A stretch of DNA of 64,000 nucleotides, taken from the NCBI GenBank assembly GCA_030833845.1, contig JAURGK010000011.1, forward strand, positions 1-64,000, read 5' to 3'. Every line of letters starts with the position of its first letter. The first letter of the stretch is position 1. Shown piece after piece: positions 46,608 to 57,267 of the stretch. Source of the DNA: Crocinitomicaceae bacterium. Lineage in GTDB: Bacteria; Bacteroidota; Bacteroidia; Flavobacteriales_D; Crocinitomicaceae. A program made the translations under genes and the position numbers. The notes under the pieces were generated by a model. The model made no database searches, was not told where the DNA came from, and worked only from the letters and a program-made list of their open reading frames with translations.

Positions 46608-46623
46608 TGTAACGCTTGTTACA
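46608..46623. promoter_or_regulatory. Crp/Fnr-type operator upstream of the rhodanese gene
   Basis: TGTAAC-GCTT-GTTACA is a perfect 6-bp inverted repeat with a 4-nt centre. A TTG begins 5 nt after it and a weak -7-like CACCTTTA begins 21 nt after it (46645-46652), placing the palindrome centre near -40.5. The ATG is at 46669. The same 16-bp pattern and spacing recur at 48026. Confidence 0.7.
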
Positions 46624-46668
46624 AATAGTTGTCATTTAAAACTTCACCTTTACAAAAAAATATCAATT

Positions 46669-47055
46669 ATGAAATGGATACCACTTTTTGCATTGCTCAT
46701 TATTAATTTAGTGTCTTGCCAATCTACAGCACAAATGGGTTATAAAAATGCCCCAATTGCACAGCTCTCTAAAATTCAAAAGGAAAATAAGGCCATCGTC
46801 ATTGATGTGCGCACACCGGCCGAATGGCAAGAGGGTGTGATTGAAGGCGCTACCGTATTTATTGACTACAAAGGAGGAAACTTCGAGCAGCAAATCGCTA
46901 AATTGGATAAATCAAAAACCTACGTTGTTTATTGTAGAAGTGGTGGTAGAAGTGCTGGTGCAAGCGACGTGATGGCAAAAAATGGTTTCAAACATGTGAT
47001 CAACATGGAAGGTGGTATCATGGCTTGGACGGGTAAAATAGTTAAAAAACCTTGA
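46669..47055 (+). CDS. Rhodanese-domain lipoprotein
   Basis: The 128-residue protein has a signal with lipobox NLVSC (Cys17) and one rhodanese domain (about 35-125) with the active-site VYCRSGGRSA, in which Cys89 would carry sulfane sulfur. It probably moves persulfide sulfur at the envelope. It is the first gene after the first operator and lies 12 nt before YeiH, consistent with one operon. Exact donor and acceptor are unknown. Confidence 0.9.
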   Translation: MKWIPLFALLIINLVSCQSTAQMGYKNAPIAQLSKIQKENKAIVIDVRTPAEWQEGVIEGATVFIDYKGGNFEQQIAKLDKSKTYVVYCRSGGRSAGASDVMAKNGFKHVINMEGGIMAWTGKIVKKP

Positions 47056-47067
47056 TTCAAACAGACA

Positions 47068-48030
47068 ATGAAGGTCCAAATTCCTGGCATACTATTGGCT
47101 GCATTTTTAGGATTTGCAGCCTTTTTTTTATCTGGATTCACACCATCTTTTTTGAATTCGTATTTACTGGCCTTGCTCCTTGGTATGTTCTTGGTACCAT
47201 TGACCAACAAAGTTTCAATTTTTGACCCAGGTATTGATTTAAGCGCGGCCAAATTACTAGAATTGTCGGTGATTGTTATGGCTTTCGGTATGGACTACAA
47301 AGCCATTGGTGCCATTGGTGCAAAAGATTTTGTTGTCATTGTTATGGTCCTTGGGCTGGTGCTCTTGGCTACTTATTACTTATCTAAGGTGCTTTCTTGT
47401 CCAGGCAAAACCGGATGGTTAGTTGGATTTGGGACGGCAATTTGTGGATCTTCGGCAATTGCTGCTTTAGCTCCTAGGATCAAAGCGCAAAAAGAAGATG
47501 TGGCTATTTCATTGGCGGCGGTCAATTTATTGGGTTCAATTGGCATGCTTCTGATGCCTTTGATTTTTCAAATATTTCCCATTCTAGAGAAGGAGATGGC
47601 GTTTTTCATTGGTGCTTCCTTGCACTCGGTTGGGAATGTTGCTGGTGCAGGATTCTCGGTGTCTGAAGATGTAGGGCAAATGGCACTAGTTTATAAAATG
47701 GCACGTGTTGCTTTGCTCTCCCCTGCGCTACTACTGATGGTTTGGCTCGATGCTCGTAAAACTCCAAACCAAGCATTTAGCTTTTCTATGCCTTGGTATT
47801 TAATTGCTTTTATTGTAATCTCTGTAATGGTCACTTTTTTTCCACTCCCAACAAATGTCATCGGGTATACCGAAACATTAGGTAAAATCATTCTTACGGT
47901 TGCCATGGCGGCAATAGGCTTAAAGGTGCATTTGTGGCGCTTGATTCAAGCAGGGCAGAGGGGCTTGGTGTTTGCACTACTCGTTTTTGTATTGCAAATA
48001 AGCTTATTGTGGATCTATTTGTCTTTGTAA
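47068..48030 (+). CDS. YeiH family putative sulfate exporter
   Basis: The 320-residue membrane protein has about ten helices and motifs of the UPF0324/YeiH group: ILLAAFLGFAAFFLSGF, KLLELSVIVMAFGMDY, and the glycine-rich VGFGTAICGSSAIAALAP with GASLHSVGNVAGAGF in the second half. YeiH-type proteins are proposed to export sulfate or small sulfonates. Its place in a sulfur oxidation cluster supports export of an end product. Its stop codon overlaps the second operator. Confidence 0.85.
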   Translation: MKVQIPGILLAAFLGFAAFFLSGFTPSFLNSYLLALLLGMFLVPLTNKVSIFDPGIDLSAAKLLELSVIVMAFGMDYKAIGAIGAKDFVVIVMVLGLVLLATYYLSKVLSCPGKTGWLVGFGTAICGSSAIAALAPRIKAQKEDVAISLAAVNLLGSIGMLLMPLIFQIFPILEKEMAFFIGASLHSVGNVAGAGFSVSEDVGQMALVYKMARVALLSPALLLMVWLDARKTPNQAFSFSMPWYLIAFIVISVMVTFFPLPTNVIGYTETLGKIILTVAMAAIGLKVHLWRLIQAGQRGLVFALLVFVLQISLLWIYLSL

Positions 48031-48041
48031 CACTAGTTACA
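48026..48041. promoter_or_regulatory. Crp/Fnr-type operator upstream of the CstB-like gene
   Basis: TGTAAC-ACTA-GTTACA is identical in both arms to the operator at 46608, differing only in the 4-nt centre. It covers the YeiH stop codon. TTG begins 5 nt after it and TACATTTG (48063-48070) begins 21 nt after it, the same geometry as the first site, with the centre near -40.5. Confidence 0.72.
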
Positions 48042-48062
48042 TTCACTTGAAGAATGATTTGA

Positions 48063-48070
48063 TACATTTG
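48063..48070 (+). promoter_or_regulatory. -7 element before the CstB-like gene
   Basis: TACATTTG matches TAnnTTTG exactly, 55 nt before the ATG at 48126. The nearest TTG (48047-48049) is only 13 nt upstream, too close for a normal -33 element, which suits an activator-dependent promoter. Confidence 0.55.
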
Positions 48071-48125: not shown

Positions 48126-49541
48126 ATGAAAGTAGAACAAATTTATACGGGTTGCTTGGCACAAGGTGCCTATTATGTAGTGAGTAAAAATGAGGCATTT
48201 ATTATTGATCCATTGCGCGAAATTCAGCCTTATTTAGATCGAATTGAAGCCGACGGCGTGACATTGAAATATATTTTTGAAACCCATTTCCATGCAGATT
48301 TTGTTTCAGGCCATCTTGATTTAAGTAAGCAAACAGGTGCGCCTATCGTTTATGGCCCAACGGCAAACCCTGCGTTTGAAGCAATTATTGCAACCGATGG
48401 ACAGGTGTTTGAAATAGGAGATATCAAAATCAAGGTTTTGCATACCCCGGGCCACACTATGGAGAGTTCAACTTTCTTACTCATCAATGCCGATGGAAAA
48501 GAAGAGGCCATTTTCTCGGGTGACACCCTGTTTTTAGGGGATGTTGGCCGTCCTGATTTAGCTCAAAAAGCCGCTGACATGACCCAAGAGCAATTGGCAG
48601 GTATGCTTTATGAGTCATTAATGACCAAAATCATGCCTTTATCTGATGAACTCACCGTTTATCCGGCACATGGTGCTGGTTCAGCATGTGGAAAAAACAT
48701 GATGAAAGAAACAGTAGATACGCTAGGCAATCAGAAAAAAATGATCTACGCCCTCAATCAACCGAGCAAAGAGGCCTTTATTGCAGCGGTAACCGATGGT
48801 TTGTTGCCTCCACCAGCTTATTTTGGGCATAATGTGGCTATGAATAAAAAAGGCTATGACAGCTTTGAAGAAGTAAAGCAAAAAGCTTTGTCTCCCTTAA
48901 GTCCTGCGGCATTTGAAACTTTGGTAGAAGCAACAGGAGCGCTCATTTTGGATACGCGACCAGCTGCAGAATTTCATAAAGGATTTGTTCCACAGTCAGT
49001 AAATATTGGTATTCGCGGTGATTTTGCACCATGGGTTGGTGCCCTGGTTGGTGATGTCAAACAAGAGATCGTGCTTATTACCGAACCAGGTATGGAAGAA
49101 GAGGTAGTTACGCGTTTGAGCCGTGTTGGCTTTGACAAGGTATTGGGCTATCTTGAAGGAGGCTTTGAAGCATGGTTAGGCGCTAACAAAGAAATTGATC
49201 AAGTGAACAGAATTAGCGCTGAAACCTTTGCCAATGAATTTAAACTTGGTGAATCTATGGTAATCGATGTGCGCAAAGAAAGCGAATATGAGGCTGAGCA
49301 CGTTGAAGATGCCTACAGCAAACCCTTGGCTTACATCAACGAATGGACCAAAGACATTGACCCAGAACAACATTTCTTTATGCATTGTGCTGGGGGTTAT
49401 AGAAGCATGATCGCCGCTTCTATCTTGCAAGCGCGTGGCTATAGAAATTTCACAGAAGTGGATGGAGGTTTTGGTGCCATTTCTAAAACACAGGTGCCTA
49501 AAACTGATTTTGTATGTCAAAGTAAAGTAATGAAACAATAA
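48126..49541 (+). CDS. CstB-like persulfide dioxygenase-rhodanese
   Basis: The 471-residue protein has an N-terminal MBL/ETHE1-like domain (about 1-245) with THFHADFVSGH (His54, His56, Asp58), HTPGHT (His110), SGDTLF and PAHGAGSACG. Two rhodanese domains follow: the first (about 262-355) lacks the active Cys (the loop reads LITEPGMEEE), and the second (about 362-460) has it in HCAGGYRS (Cys421). This is the architecture of CstB, which oxidises glutathione- or CoA-bound persulfide and produces sulfite or thiosulfate. It heads a new transcript after the second operator. Cytoplasmic. Confidence 0.9.
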   Translation: MKVEQIYTGCLAQGAYYVVSKNEAFIIDPLREIQPYLDRIEADGVTLKYIFETHFHADFVSGHLDLSKQTGAPIVYGPTANPAFEAIIATDGQVFEIGDIKIKVLHTPGHTMESSTFLLINADGKEEAIFSGDTLFLGDVGRPDLAQKAADMTQEQLAGMLYESLMTKIMPLSDELTVYPAHGAGSACGKNMMKETVDTLGNQKKMIYALNQPSKEAFIAAVTDGLLPPPAYFGHNVAMNKKGYDSFEEVKQKALSPLSPAAFETLVEATGALILDTRPAAEFHKGFVPQSVNIGIRGDFAPWVGALVGDVKQEIVLITEPGMEEEVVTRLSRVGFDKVLGYLEGGFEAWLGANKEIDQVNRISAETFANEFKLGESMVIDVRKESEYEAEHVEDAYSKPLAYINEWTKDIDPEQHFFMHCAGGYRSMIAASILQARGYRNFTEVDGGFGAISKTQVPKTDFVCQSKVMKQ

Positions 49542-49567: not shown

Positions 49568-50125
49568 ATGCTCGATTTTATTTTGAAACCATGGCCTTGG
49601 TGGTTCTCGGGAATCATTATTGCCACTGTTATGTTTTTAATGCTCTTTTTTGGAAAGAGTTTTGGATTCTCTTCTAATTTACGCACCATATGCACCATAG
49701 TTGGCGCTGGAAAACGCGTTAAATTCTTTGATTTTGATTGGAAAACTCAATCGTGGAACTTGATTTTCTTAGTAGGTGCTATCATAGGTGGCTACATTGC
49801 CAATACTTACCTTAATGATGGTTCAGACTTTCAATTAGCTCAAAGTACTGCTCAGGATTTGGCCGCACTAGGATTTGAAAAAGCCCAAGATATCCAGCCT
49901 ATGGAATTGTTCAGTTGGGAGGCCTTATTTACATGGAAAGGATTTGCCTTTTTATCCATTGGTGGCTTTCTTGTAGGATTTGGTTCTAGATATGCAGGTG
50001 GGTGCACCTCTGGGCATGCCATTTCAGGCATATCTAATCTTCAAATTCCATCCATCATTGCGGTGGTTGGATTTTTCATTGGAGGTCTCATCATGACCCA
50101 TATTGTTTTCCCGTTAATCTTTTAG
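49568..50125 (+). CDS. YeeE/YedE transporter, first half
   Basis: The 185-residue membrane protein contains the first YeeE/YedE half: GKSFGFSSNLRTICTI, and GFGSRYAGGCTSGHAISG with the conserved Cys146. YeeE of enterobacteria and relatives takes up thiosulfate along a relay of cysteines. Here the transporter is split into two genes two bases apart. It lies 26 nt after the CstB-like gene, so the imported or recycled sulfur compound should be linked to it. Confidence 0.9.
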   Translation: MLDFILKPWPWWFSGIIIATVMFLMLFFGKSFGFSSNLRTICTIVGAGKRVKFFDFDWKTQSWNLIFLVGAIIGGYIANTYLNDGSDFQLAQSTAQDLAALGFEKAQDIQPMELFSWEALFTWKGFAFLSIGGFLVGFGSRYAGGCTSGHAISGISNLQIPSIIAVVGFFIGGLIMTHIVFPLIF

Positions 50126-50127
50126 TT

Positions 50128-50541
50128 ATGAAGTTCATTAAATTTTTATTCGTAGGGATACTTTTTGGCATTGTGATGGCCAAGTCTCAAGCCCTAAGTT
50201 GGTATAGAATTCAGGAAATGTTCCGATTTCAGAGTTTTCATATGTACGGAATCATCGGCACCGCAGTTGTGATTGGCGTCATTGGTACAGCGCTGATCAA
50301 ACGCTTTGGTTGGAAAGATTATCAAGGCAATGAAATTCCATTTGCTCCAAAAGAGAAGTCTTTTTGGCGTTACTTACTTGGCGGAAGTATTTTTGGCCTG
50401 GGTTGGGCCCTAAGTGGCGCTTGCCCAGGGCCAATGGTTGTAAACATTGGTTATGGTTTTGTCAGCTTTATTGCCGTGGTATTTTTTGCGGTTGTGGGAA
50501 CCTACGTTTATGGGTTGATACAAGATAAATTACCCCACTAA
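50128..50541 (+). CDS. YeeE/YedE transporter, second half (DUF6691-like)
   Basis: The 137-residue membrane protein is the partner half: LFGIVMAKSQALSWYRIQEMF, then GGSIFGLGWALSGACPGPMV with Cys99 in the second conserved motif. Together with the preceding gene it completes the pseudo-twofold channel. Two bases separate them. Start ATG 50128 follows the previous stop. Confidence 0.88.
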   Translation: MKFIKFLFVGILFGIVMAKSQALSWYRIQEMFRFQSFHMYGIIGTAVVIGVIGTALIKRFGWKDYQGNEIPFAPKEKSFWRYLLGGSIFGLGWALSGACPGPMVVNIGYGFVSFIAVVFFAVVGTYVYGLIQDKLPH

Positions 50542-50552
50542 CTGCTGGCAAT

Positions 50553-51515
50553 ATGAAATACATATTGATTTTTTCTGTCTTCATTTTTACTTTGAGTGCT
50601 TGTGAAAACAATGACACTTCGAAGCTAATTATTTCAGAAGAGGAAAACTTCGTAGCCGCACCGGCGAGTGAGTTTTGGCAAGCCCCTGACGTGTTTGCGA
50701 TCAAGGATGCGAAGAAGTCAAATGAGCTAATGTATGGGCGTGATTTGATCGTGCGTACGGCTTATTATTTAGGGCCAAAGGGGCGAGTCGCACAACAATC
50801 CAATGGGCTCAATTGCCAAAATTGCCATTTAAATGCCGGCACCAAGGTATTTGGCAATAACTATGGCTCTGTGGCTTCTATGTATCCAAAGTTGAGAGCT
50901 AGGAGTGGCAAAATTGAGAGCATTGAAAAACGCATCAATGACTGTTTTGAGAGGAGTTTGAATGGCAAGGCCTTAAAAGAGGATAGCCGTGAGATGCGTG
51001 CCATGGTAGCCTACATGAAGTTCCTTGGTCAAAATGTCAAAAAGAATGAAAAGGCTGCGGGTTCTGGTTTTAAAGATTTGACCTTATTAGACCGGGCAGC
51101 AAGCCCAGAGAAAGGTAAAGTTGTCTATGAATTGCGCTGCGCAAGTTGCCATCAGTCGAATGGTCAGGGTATCATTGATGGTATTGGCCAATCTTATGTT
51201 TACCCGCCGCTTTGGGGTGAGCATAGTTTCAATGATGCAGCAGGCCTAAGTAGAATTTCAAATATGGCCAAATACGTCAAATACAATATGCCTTTTGGGG
51301 TGAATTATGATACGCCCGAACTTTCAGATGAAGATGCTTGGGATGTAGCAGCCTATGTGGTGAGCCAAGCTCGACCACATAAACCTACTCCAAAAGACTG
51401 GCCGGATATTACCAAAAAACCAATGGACCATCCTTTTGGCCCCTATGCTGATCAATTTTCTGAATTGCAACATAAGTACGGACCATTTACAGCGATGAAA
51501 AAGGCTAAAAAGTAG
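50553..51515 (+). CDS. TsdA-like dihaem c-type cytochrome
   Basis: The 320-residue protein has a lipoprotein-type signal (lipobox LSAC, Cys17) and two haem motifs, CQNCH (88-92) and CASCH (196-200), in two c-type domains. Between them, INDCFERSLNG (Cys131) matches the conserved region of thiosulfate dehydrogenase TsdA where a Cys ligates the active-site haem. TsdA couples two thiosulfates to tetrathionate. The haem-2 ligand would be Lys or Met near 240-246 (AKYVKYNMP). Its place beside YeeE supports a thiosulfate role. A SoxA-like or other cytochrome is a weaker alternative. Confidence 0.82.
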   Translation: MKYILIFSVFIFTLSACENNDTSKLIISEEENFVAAPASEFWQAPDVFAIKDAKKSNELMYGRDLIVRTAYYLGPKGRVAQQSNGLNCQNCHLNAGTKVFGNNYGSVASMYPKLRARSGKIESIEKRINDCFERSLNGKALKEDSREMRAMVAYMKFLGQNVKKNEKAAGSGFKDLTLLDRAASPEKGKVVYELRCASCHQSNGQGIIDGIGQSYVYPPLWGEHSFNDAAGLSRISNMAKYVKYNMPFGVNYDTPELSDEDAWDVAAYVVSQARPHKPTPKDWPDITKKPMDHPFGPYADQFSELQHKYGPFTAMKKAKK

Positions 51516-51525
51516 ATTGAAAGAG

Positions 51526-52962
51526 ATGAGTTTTCTAAAAGTTACATTTTTTACAGCTGCCTTTGTATCTATATTATTTACGGATAATTTGTATGCCCAA
51601 CATCATGAACTTGGTGAGCAGCCTATCATGTGGAGAGGGAAACCTCAAGATGTGTTGGACTCAACATCCATTTTATATGCATTTAAAACAGGAACGACCA
51701 ATGGTCATTTTCGATATTTCCTAAGTCAAACCACTAATCAAGGTGTCTTATCTGATTATTATGGCAATGCCATAGGTGGAGGATTGCGTTTTGAAACCAA
51801 TTCCTTTCATCATTTTCAATTTGCGGTAAGTGGCTTTTATTTTTTCAATATCGGTTCGTCCATTATGCATGAGCCAGATTCGATAACGGGCACATTGAGT
51901 CGATATGAATTAGGCTTGTTCGATATTGAAAACCCAGACAACCATAGAGATATGGATCGATTGGAGGAATTGTATTTGAAATACAATACGAGCGGTGGCC
52001 GCATCATTATAGGGCGCCAACTGATCAACACACCACTGATCAATATTCAAGACGGACGCATGCGGGGCACCGGTGTTGAAGGCTTGTGGATAGATCAGCA
52101 TTTTGCAAAAAAATGGCGTTTTCAAGGTGGCTTGCTCACTGCATTTTCCCCGAGGAGTACCACCAAATGGTTCAAAGGAGCTGAGTCTGTAGGTTTGTAT
52201 AGTCAAGGGGTGAATTTGGATGGGAGTCCGTCAAATTATAAAGATCATCTACACTTGCCTTATGTGGGGGTAGCTTCCATCACCTGGAAGCCCAATAGTT
52301 GGATAGAATACCAAGGCTGGGATTACCATATGCCTCGAATACTCAATAGTACATTTCATCAGGTCTTAGTTACTAAGTCCCTTCCAAAAATAAAATGGAT
52401 CCATGGATTGCAGCTCATCAGGCAATGGGCTTTAGCAGATGGTGGCAATGCAGACCTAAACAAGACTTATGTGACACCAGGAGCCAAATCAATGACTTTT
52501 GGCTTGCGTTCTTCTGTATTGATCAAGGATTGGCAATATTCAATTAACTATAATCGCATCACGGCCCAGGGACGTTATTTATTTCCTAGGGAATGGGGCA
52601 GAGATCCCTTCTTCACATTTCTGCCGAGAGAACGCAATGAAGGACTGAGCAACACCCGTGCAGTGGTGTTTAAAATTGAAAATCAGAGCAACCTTTCGAT
52701 TTTGAAGAAATCGAGTATGGCACTAGGCTATTATCAACTACCTGATGTATTGGATTTTGCTTCTAATAAATATGGCATGCCAAGCTACCTTCAAGCCAAT
52801 TTTGATCTAAGAGTTAAACTCAATAAGCTCATGGAAGGCCTAGAGGGGCAACTGCTTTTAGTATATAAATATGGGGTGGGTGCAACGCACAATAACCCAA
52901 AATACCAAATCAATAAGGTCGATATGTTTTTGACCAACATCGTTTTAAATTATCACTTCTAA
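51526..52962 (+). CDS. OprD-like outer membrane porin
   Basis: The 478-residue protein has a signal peptide (to LYAQ) and a beta-barrel body with alternating strands, including FRYFLSQTTNQG, GGRIIIGRQLINTPLINIQDGRM and a C-terminal FLTNIVLNYHF ending in Phe, typical of outer-membrane barrels. The GRQ-P-D-R pattern resembles OprD/OprF-family channels. It is 10 nt after the cytochrome gene, suggesting it carries the sulfur substrate or product across the outer membrane. The ATG at 51526 is chosen over the TTG at 51517. Confidence 0.75.
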   Translation: MSFLKVTFFTAAFVSILFTDNLYAQHHELGEQPIMWRGKPQDVLDSTSILYAFKTGTTNGHFRYFLSQTTNQGVLSDYYGNAIGGGLRFETNSFHHFQFAVSGFYFFNIGSSIMHEPDSITGTLSRYELGLFDIENPDNHRDMDRLEELYLKYNTSGGRIIIGRQLINTPLINIQDGRMRGTGVEGLWIDQHFAKKWRFQGGLLTAFSPRSTTKWFKGAESVGLYSQGVNLDGSPSNYKDHLHLPYVGVASITWKPNSWIEYQGWDYHMPRILNSTFHQVLVTKSLPKIKWIHGLQLIRQWALADGGNADLNKTYVTPGAKSMTFGLRSSVLIKDWQYSINYNRITAQGRYLFPREWGRDPFFTFLPRERNEGLSNTRAVVFKIENQSNLSILKKSSMALGYYQLPDVLDFASNKYGMPSYLQANFDLRVKLNKLMEGLEGQLLLVYKYGVGATHNNPKYQINKVDMFLTNIVLNYHF

Positions 52963-52975
52963 ACCAACAAACACA

Positions 52976-53809
52976 ATGACTTTTGACCTACTTACTATTT
53001 TTGGCTTCTTTGCGAGTACCCTCATAGGGATATCTCTAGGTCTTATCGGAGGAGGAGGATCTATTTTGACGGTTCCGGTATTGGTTTATCTTTTTGGTGT
53101 AGACCCCGTTATGGCAACAGCTTATTCGCTTTTCATCGTTGGACTCAGCAGTCTATTTGGTGCTTTTCCAAAGTATAAACAAGGTTTAATTGATTTGAAA
53201 ACAGCTGTTGTTTTTGGCATACCTTCCATTTTGGCTGTCTTTTTCACTAGAAAAGTATTGGTGCCTGCTATCCCAAATACCCTATTTGAAATATTTGGCC
53301 TTACCGTGACAAAAGCCTTGGCAATGATGATCCTCTTTGCTATTCTCATGGTGGCTGCCTCTATTTCAATGATACGAGACAAAAAACAAGAATCTATAGA
53401 AACTAAAGAACCACGTATTTTTAATTACCCAATGATTTTACTTGAAGGTATGGTGGTTGGTGTTCTGACCGGTTTGGTTGGTGCAGGTGGAGGGTTTTTA
53501 ATCATACCGGCACTAGTCATGCTAAGTAAACTACCTATGAAACAAGCCGTTGGCACAAGTCTTCTAATCATTGCTGCTAAATCATTAATAGGTTTTACAG
53601 GTGATGTGCTTACCCAAGCTGACAGTATGGATTGGACTCTATTGACTGTAGTTACCCTTTTGGCTGTGGTAGGTATTTTTGTTGGAAATCAATTATCTAA
53701 AAAGATTGATGGTGGAGCACTGAAAAAAGGCTTTGGCTGGTTTGTGCTCATTATGGGAATGTATATTATCATCAAAGAATTGGCGTTTTCAGGAGCTGCA
53801 AGTCATTAA
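52976..53809 (+). CDS. TauE/SafE sulfite-type exporter
   Basis: The 277-residue protein has eight or so membrane helices and the duplicated TauE/SafE motif: [24 protein letters not shown] near the start and [22 protein letters not shown] in the middle. Family members export sulfite or related anions. In this cluster it would remove sulfite formed by the CstB- or SoxB-linked reactions. It lies 13 nt after the porin gene and 42 nt before the SoxB-like gene. Confidence 0.9.
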
Positions 53810-53851: not shown

Positions 53852-55558
53852 ATGAAACAGGAAAGAAGAAAATTTCTCAAAACACTAGGCTCAGCAGGTT
53901 TAGGAAGTTTGTTAGCACCAAGTTTGTTAGCCCAAAATAATGAGTCAGGGCAGTCATTTGATGCAAAGCACTTACAAAGTGATTCAGTGGCAAAAAAAAA
54001 TGGAAAAATGACCTTGCAACTTTTGCAAACCACCGATGTGCACTGTCAGATACACCCTCATGATGAGCTTTTTTGGGAAAATGAGCAGGCTGTTTTTCGC
54101 AAAACAGGTGGCTATGCCCAAATGCGGAGTTTTTTAAAACAACTCAAGAAAAAAAATCCTCATACCTTTCTAGTGGACACCGGTGACATGTTTCAGGGAT
54201 CTCAACTGAGTGTTGAAACTACGGGTCAGGCCTTTGTTCCTATTTTAAATGCCATGGATTACCAATTGTATTTACCAGGAAACTGGGAGGTGATTTATGG
54301 AAAACAAAAAATGCAGCAGCTGATGGGTGCACTCCATGCGCCAAAAGTTTGTACCAATATGTATCATGATTTGGGCAATGGACAGCGTGGTGAACTCATT
54401 TTTCAGCCTTATCATATTTGGGAAAATGCAGGTGTAAAAATTGGTTTTTTAGGTTATACAGATCCATTAGTGCCATTGAGACAAAGTCCGAATTACAGTA
54501 AAGGCATAGTCTACACCAAGCCTGAAGAAAACCTAGCTCATTATGTGGATGTGCTTCGCAATCAAGAACAGTGTGCGATGGTTATTATTTTGGCTCATTT
54601 GGGTCTATCCCAGCAGATTGCTTTGGCCAATGATCCCTCTTGCAAGGGCGTAGACTATATTTTTGGCGGTGATACCCACGAACGTGTGCGCCAACCAATA
54701 CAATGCACTTATACCAAGGTGGTTGAGCCTGGAGCTTTTGGGTCTTTTGTTGGTTCCTTAGAACTAGATTTTGAAAATGGGAAATTAGTTGCAGAACGAT
54801 ATGAGTTACTAGAGGTGCAAGCTGAAAATTTGAAAGCAGATGCTCAAATGCAATCTCTTTTAGAGGCCAATGAAGCAAGTTTTGCAAAAGAAATCAATAA
54901 AGTTGTAGGATACAGTACCATTCCTTTGTACCGTTATTTTGTGGTAGAAAATCCAATAGATACCATGATTTTGAATGCCTTGGATTGGAAATTTCCTCAA
55001 ATTGATATTGTATTGTCTAATGGATTTAGATTTTGTCCACCGCGAACGACTCCAGACCATACGGGAAATATTCCTATCACCAAGGGCTTTATCTTTGATA
55101 TGCTACCTGTGGATGCAACCGTTCGGACTGCAGAAGTGACAGGCAAACAAGTGTTGGCTTGGCTAGAAAAAGAACTCAATAACGTCTTTGCGAAGGATGC
55201 ATCGAAGCGCTTTGGTGGATGGGTAATCAAATTCAAGGGTATGGAAGTTGAATTTATGGCCTATGCAGAGCAAGGTAAACGCGTACAAAAGGTTTTGGTT
55301 GGTGAGCAGCCCATTGAGGAAGATAAAACTTATTCGATTTTAGCTTGTGAGCGCGATGGTGATCCGCTCGATATGCTTTGCCGTATGAAAGGCGTAAAAA
55401 ATGCACAAAATACACCTTTTACGCTCCATGAAGTCATGGAAAGTTATTTAACTACCCACAAAATTGTAACTCCAACACCGCAAGGCAATGCAAAAGTTTT
55501 GGATGCGCCGCAAAATTTACTTACCCAAGTGACTGGTGTACCTTATCAATTCTATTGA
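53852..55558 (+). CDS. soxB: SoxB-like thiosulfohydrolase (metallophosphatase family)
   Basis: The 568-residue protein has a Tat-like signal (RRKFLKTLGSAGLGSLL), a dimetal domain with TTDVHCQIHPHDELFW (Asp62, His64), VDTGDMFQGSQ (Asp109), LPGNWEVIYG (Asn144), ILAHLGLSQQ and GGDTHE, and a C-terminal domain (about 345-560). The GNWE-x-x-YG form rather than GNHE, and CERDGDPLDMLCRMKGV near 510, favour SoxB over 5'-nucleotidase. SoxB hydrolyses sulfate from SoxY-bound sulfur; no SoxYZ, SoxAX or SoxCD lies here, so its carrier is unclear. It ends the sulfur run. Confidence 0.82.
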   Translation: MKQERRKFLKTLGSAGLGSLLAPSLLAQNNESGQSFDAKHLQSDSVAKKNGKMTLQLLQTTDVHCQIHPHDELFWENEQAVFRKTGGYAQMRSFLKQLKKKNPHTFLVDTGDMFQGSQLSVETTGQAFVPILNAMDYQLYLPGNWEVIYGKQKMQQLMGALHAPKVCTNMYHDLGNGQRGELIFQPYHIWENAGVKIGFLGYTDPLVPLRQSPNYSKGIVYTKPEENLAHYVDVLRNQEQCAMVIILAHLGLSQQIALANDPSCKGVDYIFGGDTHERVRQPIQCTYTKVVEPGAFGSFVGSLELDFENGKLVAERYELLEVQAENLKADAQMQSLLEANEASFAKEINKVVGYSTIPLYRYFVVENPIDTMILNALDWKFPQIDIVLSNGFRFCPPRTTPDHTGNIPITKGFIFDMLPVDATVRTAEVTGKQVLAWLEKELNNVFAKDASKRFGGWVIKFKGMEVEFMAYAEQGKRVQKVLVGEQPIEEDKTYSILACERDGDPLDMLCRMKGVKNAQNTPFTLHEVMESYLTTHKIVTPTPQGNAKVLDAPQNLLTQVTGVPYQFY

Positions 55559-55668
55559 GATATCATAGATTTAAAAATAGTGATGCAATATTTTAATTTA
55601 AGGTTTAGATAATATAATTTATATTATTGATAATCAATTTATTAAATTTATCAATAAGAAAAAAAATA

Positions 55669-57267
55669 ATGCGATCAATTTTTATATTAGTTTTCTTTTT
55701 CTTGCATCTACAAGCTATTGCTCAAGCCACAACATTTCCTTTTGAAATACAACTTAAGGCTGATTCCATAATTGGTTTCAATGGTTTGCATTCTTTTGCA
55801 TTTGGTCAACTCAATGATAGGGTCGTTTTGATTGGCGGTAGACAAGATGGAATTCATGCAAGGCAACCCTTCAATGCATTTGCATCTAGTCAGAACAATA
55901 CATCACTTCAGCTACTAGACTTAGCCACGAATCAATTTTGGTCTGCGCCAATCAACTCACTTTCTTCATCCTTGCAAGAGCAATTGCAAAGTACCAATAT
56001 GAATTTCTTTCAGGACGGCAATGAGTTGATTATAGCAGGTGGTTATGCATTTAGTAATGCGGCCAATGATCACATTACGTTCCCTAATCTGACGCGTATT
56101 GATTTAAATGGTTTGATGCATGCAATCATTGACGACCAACCAATTTCGCCTTATTTTGAACAAATTACAGACCAAAGATTTGCTGTGACCGGTGGCAACC
56201 TAACTAAAATTGGTGGCCAATATTACTTGGTTGGAGGCCATAGATTTGACGGAAGGTATAATCCAATGAACAACCCCACTTTTGTTCAAAGTTATGTCGA
56301 TGGTCTGAAAATCTTTGAATTAAGTCCTGTGGGTCAGTCACTTGAGGTGCTCAATTACCAACTCATTACCGATCAAGTAAATTTACACCGCCGAGATTAT
56401 AATTTGTTGCCGCATATTTATCCTAATGGAGAAATTGGGGCATTGATATCATCAGGTGTATTTCAAATCAATGCAGATTTACCTTTTTTATATCCAGTGG
56501 AAGTCAAAAGTAGTGGGCATGAGCCTGTAGTAGGTTTTAGCCAATATTTGAGTAATTACCATTCGAGTAAATTCAGTGCCTACGATTCGATGAGTGGTTC
56601 AATGCACCATATATTTCTTGGTGGGCTCAGTGAGTACTATTACCAAAATGGTACATTGATCAATGATGAAAACGTCCCCTTTGTGAGTACGATAAGTAGG
56701 TTGTCTCAAGGTCCAGATGGGAGCTACCAAGAATATGTCATGCAGGGACAAATGCCTGGGCTGTTGGGCTCAAGTGCTGAATTTATTCACAACCAACAAA
56801 TTGCTCATTATGCGCATGACATTATAGATATTGCTACTATCAATAGCGATTCAATTTTAATAGGGCATATTATTGGCGGATTAAAAAGTACGCAATTAAA
56901 CCCTTTTACAAATAATAATACCAATTCAACTTCGGCTAATGCCGTAATTTATGAGGTTTGGTTAAAGCCTTCAAATACAGGCCAAATTCGCGTAGAGGCC
57001 CCCTTGAATGCTACTAAGGTGCAGCTTTTTCCCAATCCTGCTCGTGACATCGTGAATTTAGACTTTGACTTGGATCAAAAAATGAATGTAGAATGCTTTG
57101 TTTTGGACCCTAATGGTAAGATAGTGCATGAAGTGTACTACCAAAAAGTGAAAAAGACAAGCAAACACATTGATACAAAAGCACTTGGCATAAAACCGGG
57201 ATTGTATTCAATTCATCTAATATTCAACGATCAATATCTTCAAACCAAACAAATCCTAATCCAATGA
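55669..57267 (+). CDS. T9SS type A secreted protein with Kelch-like motifs
   Basis: The 532-residue protein has a signal peptide (ending LQAIAQ), repeated GG motifs of Kelch type (VVLIGGRQDG, LIIAGGYAFS, YYLVGGHRFDG, IFLGGLSEYY, IIGGLKS) that imply a beta-propeller, and a C-terminal type A sorting domain starting KVQLFPNPARDIVNLDF. It should be secreted through the type IX system. The ATG at 55669 is chosen over an in-frame ATT/TTG region upstream. The 110-nt region before it is very A/T-rich. It overlaps the methyltransferase gene by 4 nt. Confidence 0.88.
   Translation: MRSIFILVFFFLHLQAIAQATTFPFEIQLKADSIIGFNGLHSFAFGQLNDRVVLIGGRQDGIHARQPFNAFASSQNNTSLQLLDLATNQFWSAPINSLSSSLQEQLQSTNMNFFQDGNELIIAGGYAFSNAANDHITFPNLTRIDLNGLMHAIIDDQPISPYFEQITDQRFAVTGGNLTKIGGQYYLVGGHRFDGRYNPMNNPTFVQSYVDGLKIFELSPVGQSLEVLNYQLITDQVNLHRRDYNLLPHIYPNGEIGALISSGVFQINADLPFLYPVEVKSSGHEPVVGFSQYLSNYHSSKFSAYDSMSGSMHHIFLGGLSEYYYQNGTLINDENVPFVSTISRLSQGPDGSYQEYVMQGQMPGLLGSSAEFIHNQQIAHYAHDIIDIATINSDSILIGHIIGGLKSTQLNPFTNNNTNSTSANAVIYEVWLKPSNTGQIRVEAPLNATKVQLFPNPARDIVNLDFDLDQKMNVECFVLDPNGKIVHEVYYQKVKKTSKHIDTKALGIKPGLYSIHLIFNDQYLQTKQILIQ

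Follow-up and report, generated by a model that had tools for sequence, protein, structure and literature searches.

Two palindromes of the form TGTAAC-N4-GTTACA stand before sulfur genes in the window (the whole 64,000-nucleotide stretch of Crocinitomicaceae DNA analysed here), and the question that they raise is whether one regulator reads both and, if so, which protein it is and what it senses. Operator 1 (TGTAACGCTTGTTACA, 46608-46623, + strand) sits 5' of a rhodanese-yeiH gene pair and operator 2 (TGTAACACTAGTTACA, 48026-48041, + strand) 5' of a gene for a persulfide dioxygenase (PDO), where it overlaps the 3' end and stop codon of yeiH. Both lie exactly where a first-pass annotation of the sequence had placed them, with identical arms and an N4 centre that differs between the two. 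They are followed by these features:

46645-46652, + strand: weak -7-like element CACCTTTA, 21 nt 3' of operator 1, two mismatches to TAnnTTTG
46669-47055, + strand: rhodanese-domain protein, 128 aa (PF00581 over the cut-off)
47068-48030, + strand: YeiH-family putative sulfate exporter, 320 aa (PF03601 over the cut-off; TIGR00698 below its cut-off)
48063-48070, + strand: -7 box TACATTTG, 21 nt 3' of operator 2, no mismatches
48126-49541, + strand: predicted persulfide dioxygenase-sulfurtransferase, 471 aa (3tp9, 9e-61; 3r2u, 2e-53)
49568-50125, + strand: YeeE/YedE-type sulfur transporter half (PF04143 over the cut-off; TsuA model below its cut-off)
50128-50541, + strand: YeeE/YedE-type sulfur transporter half, DUF6691 (Pfam match)
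50553-51515, + strand: SoxA/TsdA-like cytochrome c (PF21342, PF00034)
51526-52962, + strand: predicted exported porin-like protein (open reading frame labelled by eye only)
52976-53809, + strand: TauE/SafE transporter (PF01925)
53852-55558, + strand: SoxB-like/5'-nucleotidase-family protein (TIGR04486 at 252 bits, below the cut-off of 550; SoxB 2wdc as best match)
55627-57267, + strand: exported kelch-like protein (labelled by eye), after the SoxB-like gene

The PDO joins a metallo-beta-lactamase domain to two rhodanese stretches and presumably resembles CstB. The porin-like frame, which had no NCBIfam match, is probably on the same transcript as its neighbours, and the kelch-like gene possibly still lies within the PDO transcript. 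A similar kelch-like protein is encoded in one relative (G003, L150), there with an operator of its own.

Class II activators of the Crp/Fnr family act from a position centred at -41.5. In a transcription start map of F. psychrophilum (PMC9723704), the -7 box spans -12 to -5. If the box marks the start in the same way here, a spacing of 21 nt would put the palindrome centre at -41.5, the class II position that had been proposed for both window sites; for operator 1, the +1 so predicted falls near 46657. The -7-like element described 21 nt downstream of each palindrome is a perfect TAnnTTTG before the PDO gene, but two of its six defined bases are off before the rhodanese gene. A TTG located 5 nt after each palindrome had also been noted, with a spacing of 13 nt in place of the normal -33 spacing. 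It is there at both window sites but missing from the same place in the other four sites of the genome; the 13-nt spacing is therefore unsupported, and we rejected the TTG, which looks incidental, as a promoter element.

The palindrome pair is real, yet by itself it is not striking. At up to two mismatches the window holds two palindromes, both exact, against 2.23 expected from shuffles. The exact TGTAAC-N4-GTTACA occurred in none of 60 Markov-simulated 64-kb sequences, and some 6-N4-6 palindrome with repeated arms arose in 17 of them. Nor is the genome-wide count raised: at up to one mismatch the palindrome occupies six places in the assembly (G000; 2,138,359 bases in 44 contigs, 94.7% complete, with the window on contig C22), against 20 for a reversed control pattern. 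We therefore rejected the window pair alone as strong evidence.

What goes beyond chance is the gene context of the sites and their fixed promoter spacing, not the number of palindromes. The 2.14-Mb assembly holds three exact copies, two of them inside the window, and all precede sulfide or persulfide genes, so the palindrome is not a common element unlinked to sulfur metabolism. These genes are rhodanese-yeiH, PDO and, outside the window, a sulfide:quinone oxidoreductase (SQR) gene, which starts 65 nt after the end of the third copy (C40:19351) and whose product has mitochondrial SQR as its best solved match (2e-112). Three one-mismatch sites stand 5' of a gene for a 98-aa thioredoxin-like protein (labelled by eye), one for a 120-aa thioredoxin (PF00085) and speDE. 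On the gene side, 21 nt past the palindrome, an exact TAnnTTTG follows four of the six sites; the rhodanese and SQR boxes are weak, each two mismatches from this consensus. TAnnTTTG has a background rate of ~0.0006 per base across the window, which gives p ~2e-12 for its presence at a single fixed offset after four of the six sites, a count that includes the sites from which the offset was defined; sites new to the original finding carry the exact box in three of four cases (~1e-9, by arithmetic from the window rate). Searching the genome for the combined 45-base unit of operator and box, at up to three mismatches, yields 14 hits, and the reversed pattern yields 5. Among individual units, one with two mismatches (L016, G000:C2:149975-150019) lies 5' of a multicopper-oxidase-like gene (labelled by eye). 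The speDE unit (L004, G000:C4:61485-61529), before a fused AdoMet decarboxylase-spermidine synthase gene, recurs in six other genomes of the genus, and a two-mismatch unit precedes yidD, for a membrane insertion factor, in three genomes (L018, G000:C26:22226-22270; L133, G027; L154, G019). Neither speDE nor yidD has an evident sulfur link.

The regulator gene lies outside the window, as the first-pass annotation had it: no Crp/Fnr domain was found on contig C22 (E<=0.001), and domains of this type occur in the genome on contigs C3, C25, C11 and C8. Our candidate is the 216-aa C8 protein (G000:C8:18580-19227), a member of the CRP/FNR superfamily by PF00027 (cNMP_binding) and PF13545 (Crp-type HTH), both over the cut-off; only Crp-type domains matched, and none of the ArsR, CsoR or MarR families. 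An AF2 model built on a 90%-identical homologue (L197; pLDDT 85, pTM 0.61, with residues 81-90 at pLDDT 63) returned Crp/Fnr-type entries throughout the Foldseek top 50, with CRP, NtcA and DNR among the matches. The best solved relative, by sequence as well as Foldseek, is a putative Crp/Fnr regulator of Eubacterium rectale (PDB 3dv8). The recognition helix SSRVVISRLL aligns with STRVTVTRLL of NtcA and CSRETVGRIL of CRP; it keeps the equivalents of CRP Arg180 and Arg185 and has Val in place of Glu181, as NtcA does. An earlier study (PMC1274295) ties the box GTAACnnnnGTTAC to a substitution at CRP position 181 and, because this position is Val in the C8 protein, a reading of TGTAAC instead of TGTGA is plausible from its sequence.

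The sensor domain of the C8 protein contains the motif GDTCAMSLQCC with three cysteines, Cys83, Cys89 and Cys90. Among the best 80 of 188 homologues, Cys83 and Cys89 are kept in all 80 and Cys90 in 79, a conservation that is partly selected for, as one of the two peptide patterns used to pick homologues contains these residues. In CRP, Glu72, Arg82 and Ser83 make up the cassette that holds the cAMP phosphate. The cysteine segment falls on this cassette in alignment and does not have its residues: in the profile alignment with 4bh9 the Glu lies in an insertion, Arg faces Ser and Ser faces Lys, unlike a cAMP-type CRP. The first cysteine of the protein is residue 83, so that the N-terminal cysteine cluster that holds [4Fe-4S] in FNR types is absent, and the NtcA equivalog model (TIGR03697) scores 41 bits against a cut-off of 245. 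The regulator gene is overlapped at its start by a DUF983 gene (by eye; L029:3211-3600), which is its neighbour in 59 of the 80 named loci. Operator sites stand before this operon within the genus, the one in our genome (CGTAACTTTGGTTACG) being two bases off and spaced at 20, and, given the overlap, autoregulation of this operon is probable.

The spacing recurs when loci are chosen by the regulator protein alone. Scanning 80 such loci for the 16-mer at up to one mismatch, with no spacing imposed, revealed 110 oriented sites, 32 of them with an exact TAnnTTTG at offset 21; these are mostly orthologues of a few promoters and hence not independent. Across offsets 5-44, 32 of the 37 exact boxes fall at 21, with two at 20, one at 18 and two at 39; five control palindromes (92 sites) yielded one box. 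In Christiangramia, a site lies between the regulator gene and tauE and a second precedes a sterol-desaturase-like gene (labelled by eye); a second operator before cydAB was not found at up to one mismatch. Cultured carriers of the regulator include Christiangramia echinicola DSM 19838 and Bizionia arctica.

One Crp/Fnr-type activator for both transcripts, working from the class II position, is the best-supported reading of the sites, spacing and co-occurrence in the genome and its relatives, and we consider it quite likely that the C8 regulator, these sites and a sulfur regulon belong together. A dimer of the C8 protein would bind TGTAAC-N4-GTTACA at both palindromes, replace the -33 contact and recruit RNA polymerase to the TAnnTTTG -7 box fixed 21 nt downstream. 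The predicted regulon of this genome would comprise rhodanese-yeiH, PDO-yeeE-yeeE-cytochrome c-tauE-soxB-like and SQR, as well as two thioredoxin-like genes, speDE and the DUF983-regulator operon, the last through its weaker site at spacing 20. Sulfane sulfur or persulfide would be sensed at Cys83/Cys89/Cys90, where CRP has its cAMP-phosphate cassette, and the regulator would then turn on genes for the detoxification of hydrogen sulfide and persulfide. Binding by the C8 protein, activation and sulfane-sulfur sensing are the steps that we infer.

The identity of the signal is the weakest step, because targets such as thioredoxin, thioredoxin reductase and peroxiredoxin would also be expected of a thiol-redox sensor. 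The first genes behind units in our genome and its relatives include those for PDO, rhodanese, SQR, TauE, SoxB-like proteins, thioredoxins, a thioredoxin-reductase-like protein and a 1-Cys peroxiredoxin, in addition to DsrE-like, YgaP-like transmembrane, SpeDE, YidD and DUF983 proteins and one that we take to be of DUF6132 type (no Pfam match); the names come partly from BLAST to own-genome proteins, partly from Pfam and partly by eye. Among the 128 unique sites that are followed by a gene, from loci picked with the spacing of 21 imposed, the largest named group (33/128) consists of PDO matches (23, including short rhodanese proteins) and rhodaneses (10). The remaining named sites precede genes for the 98-aa thioredoxin (16), SpeDE (7), TauE (5), the 120-aa thioredoxin (3), SQR (2) and the regulator (1); the genes behind the other 61, DUF983 and TrxB included, match no reference in this set. 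The earlier suggestion of sulfur-gene control is supported by the exact sites, which precede sulfide and persulfide genes; thioredoxin-like and other genes carry sites too. With the same regulator and sites, the protein could instead respond to oxygen stress or general thiol/disulfide stress, or the signal could be a metal or Fe-S cofactor bound at the three cysteines, the sulfide genes being one part of a thiol-redox regulon. The cysteines could indeed be oxidised or hold such a cofactor, and the thioredoxin, thioredoxin-reductase-like and peroxiredoxin genes carry sites in relatives. However, all three exact sites of our genome precede sulfide or persulfide genes, and the PDO/rhodanese group outnumbers every other named one. 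Thioredoxin also handles persulfides. We regard this nested alternative as unlikely, if far from negligible, and give sulfane sulfur or persulfide an even chance of being the signal of the C8 protein.

The C8 regulator and the sites tend to occur together. It is present in 43 of 60 genomes (our own included) and in 23 of the 37 genomes of the same genus. These 23 hold 108 operator-box units at up to two mismatches (mean 4.7, 2-9 per genome; reversed control 14), against 8 units (mean 0.57; reversed control 2) in the 14 regulator-negative genomes of the genus (Mann-Whitney p=3.6e-7, uncorrected for kinship). At least five of those eight units precede thioredoxin, rhodanese-linked or speDE genes (G009, G022 twice, G031 and G033), four of them in assemblies 66-84% complete and one in G009, which is 99% complete; three hits that have no open reading frame behind them and look functionless came from regulator-negative genomes. 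Conversely, G043 is regulator-positive and 100% complete, yet has no unit at up to two mismatches. Orthologues of the Crp-like C11 protein show a nearly identical pattern of presence with regard to the regulator-negative genomes, which may form one clade, so the co-occurrence is confounded by descent. Presence and absence as proof alone is weakened because kinship within the genus is uncontrolled.

PDO relatives occur in 59 of the 60 surrounding genomes, including ones that lack the regulator. Within the genus, the region upstream of PDO contains a unit in 14 of 19 regulator-positive genomes versus none of 11 negative ones (Fisher 8.7e-5; up to 1 kb scanned at up to 3 of 18 mismatches and spacings of 20-22, with shuffles reaching 3 in two genomes). 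Five of these units lie near -880 to -906, which in the two inspected (G001, G007) is before tauE. Three further regulator-positive genomes (G002, G014 and G035; L297, L298 and L299) carry at their PDO promoters a TGTGAC-N4-ATCAC variant at spacing 21, a possible drift of the operator towards the CRP half-site. No PDO site was found in the sequence seen of two regulator-positive genus genomes (G013, G029). At the order level, 8 of 12 regulator-positive genomes have a PDO unit (none in G044, G046, G055 and G056) and neither of the two regulator-negative genomes examined has one. A second PDO paralogue stands beside the main PDO in G008 (L097) and G011 (L108), with its own site, AGTAACTCGAGTCACA or AGTAACTCGGGTCACA. 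Operators, spacing, gene content, co-occurrence and the conserved helix and cysteines are all computed observations.

Binding by another Crp/Fnr protein of the genome, the Fnr-like one (C3/C25) or C11, is improbable. Both are Crp-like and present, and C11 orthologues track the site-bearing genomes within the genus. Yet the Fnr-like protein has no match in the site-bearing G001, G003, G023 and G049 and a weak one (3e-4) in G019; C11 has none in the site-bearing G010, G015, G023 and G049, the first three of which are incomplete and the last 97% complete with six units, and its helix region PESLSRMKKK does not fit. We set both aside as less consistent with the site-bearing genomes. The Fnr-like gene, whose product has several cysteines near its N-terminus, is apparently split by contig ends (G000:C3:1-436 and C25:1-242), and on C3 it stands beside hemN-like and copper P-type ATPase-like genes (labelled by eye).

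The association is also seen in a sample of the phylum. Across 247 Bacteroidota genomes at least 90% complete, the regulator (E<=1e-20) occurs in 95, the unit (up to one mismatch) in 30 and both in 26 (Fisher 9e-9), and the reversed control pattern in none. No unit was seen at that threshold in 69 of the 95 regulator-positive genomes, and 4 of the 30 unit-positive ones lack a regulator match. Of 29 sites read, 16 precede relatives of the regulon genes gathered before; part of that reference set was itself drawn from such sites. One genome without a regulator match (G295) has an exact operator and -7 box 5' of hcp (Prismane; L314, G295:C3:771959-772003). This bears on HcpR2, a Crp/Fnr regulator described for Bacteroides among others, whose box GTAACnnnnGTTAC is identical to the core palindrome of our operators (Rodionov et al., 2005; PMC1274295), and raises the possibility that the sites are an HcpR2-type regulon for nitrosative stress. 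In that study, Pro occupies CRP position 181 of HcpR2, and hcp is its only predicted target in most Bacteroides, whereas here the residue is Val in 79 of 80 homologues (one gap) and the regulon is one of sulfide/persulfide and thioredoxin genes. Moreover, hcp (PF03063) was found in none of the 60 genomes, our own and the 43 with the regulator included, while 5 of 14 control genomes were positive, and the solved HcpR (9day) matches the regulator sequence more weakly than 3dv8 or NtcA does. We judge it very unlikely that HcpR2 explains the sites. The hcp promoter of G295 probably belongs to an HcpR2-type regulon with the same box, so two or more regulators probably use this box.

That the palindromes serve a repressor or have no function, as the ordinary frequency of the 16-mer might suggest, is the most improbable of the alternatives, given the fixed 21-nt spacing over six genes of this genome and in loci chosen without it, and a site that ends at -34 and leaves the -7 box free, as suits an activator.

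The C8 regulator and its predicted sites can be compared with several known systems. NtcA of cyanobacteria is a class II activator with the box GTA-N8-TAC. That box is contained in TGTAAC-N4-GTTACA, and the two recognition helices are alike, but NtcA is a nitrogen/2-oxoglutarate regulator. Class II promoters of E. coli CRP have a site at -41.5, as is predicted here, and share the Crp fold, but differ in the half-site; the cAMP-phosphate contacts are not conserved here in the alignment and the -7 box is of the Bacteroidota type. BigR/SqrR/YgaV, MarR-type and YrkD regulators resemble our proposal in their response to sulfane sulfur, to judge from the accessible parts of the reports on them. CstR and FisR are further sulfane-sulfur regulators, and several of these proteins control sqr, pdo or rhodanese-type genes. 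The known persulfide regulators are of ArsR, CsoR, MarR or sigma54 type and mostly repressors; to our knowledge, none is of the Crp/Fnr type. Nor was any Crp/Fnr protein described as regulating sulfide or persulfide genes among the matches listed for open-licence papers, at the level of titles and abstract openings. What is new is the assignment of regulator to regulon, the core box being already known from HcpR2, and the whole is a proposed Crp/Fnr class II regulon with a probable new sensor chemistry.

Sediments, fresh water and guts all harbour abundant Bacteroidota. We tentatively propose, with slightly less than even confidence, that in a widespread Crp/Fnr branch of this phylum the cyclic-nucleotide pocket has become a sensor of sulfane sulfur with three cysteines, and that this branch directly activates, from the class II position, the thioredoxin system and the genes that oxidise sulfide and dispose of persulfide. 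If true, this would be the first Crp/Fnr-type switch for sulfide or persulfide, and Crp/Fnr activators could join the known folds of sulfane-sulfur sensors. With an operator, a promoter geometry, a candidate regulator and a regulon defined, sulfide sensing in Bacteroidota becomes directly testable.
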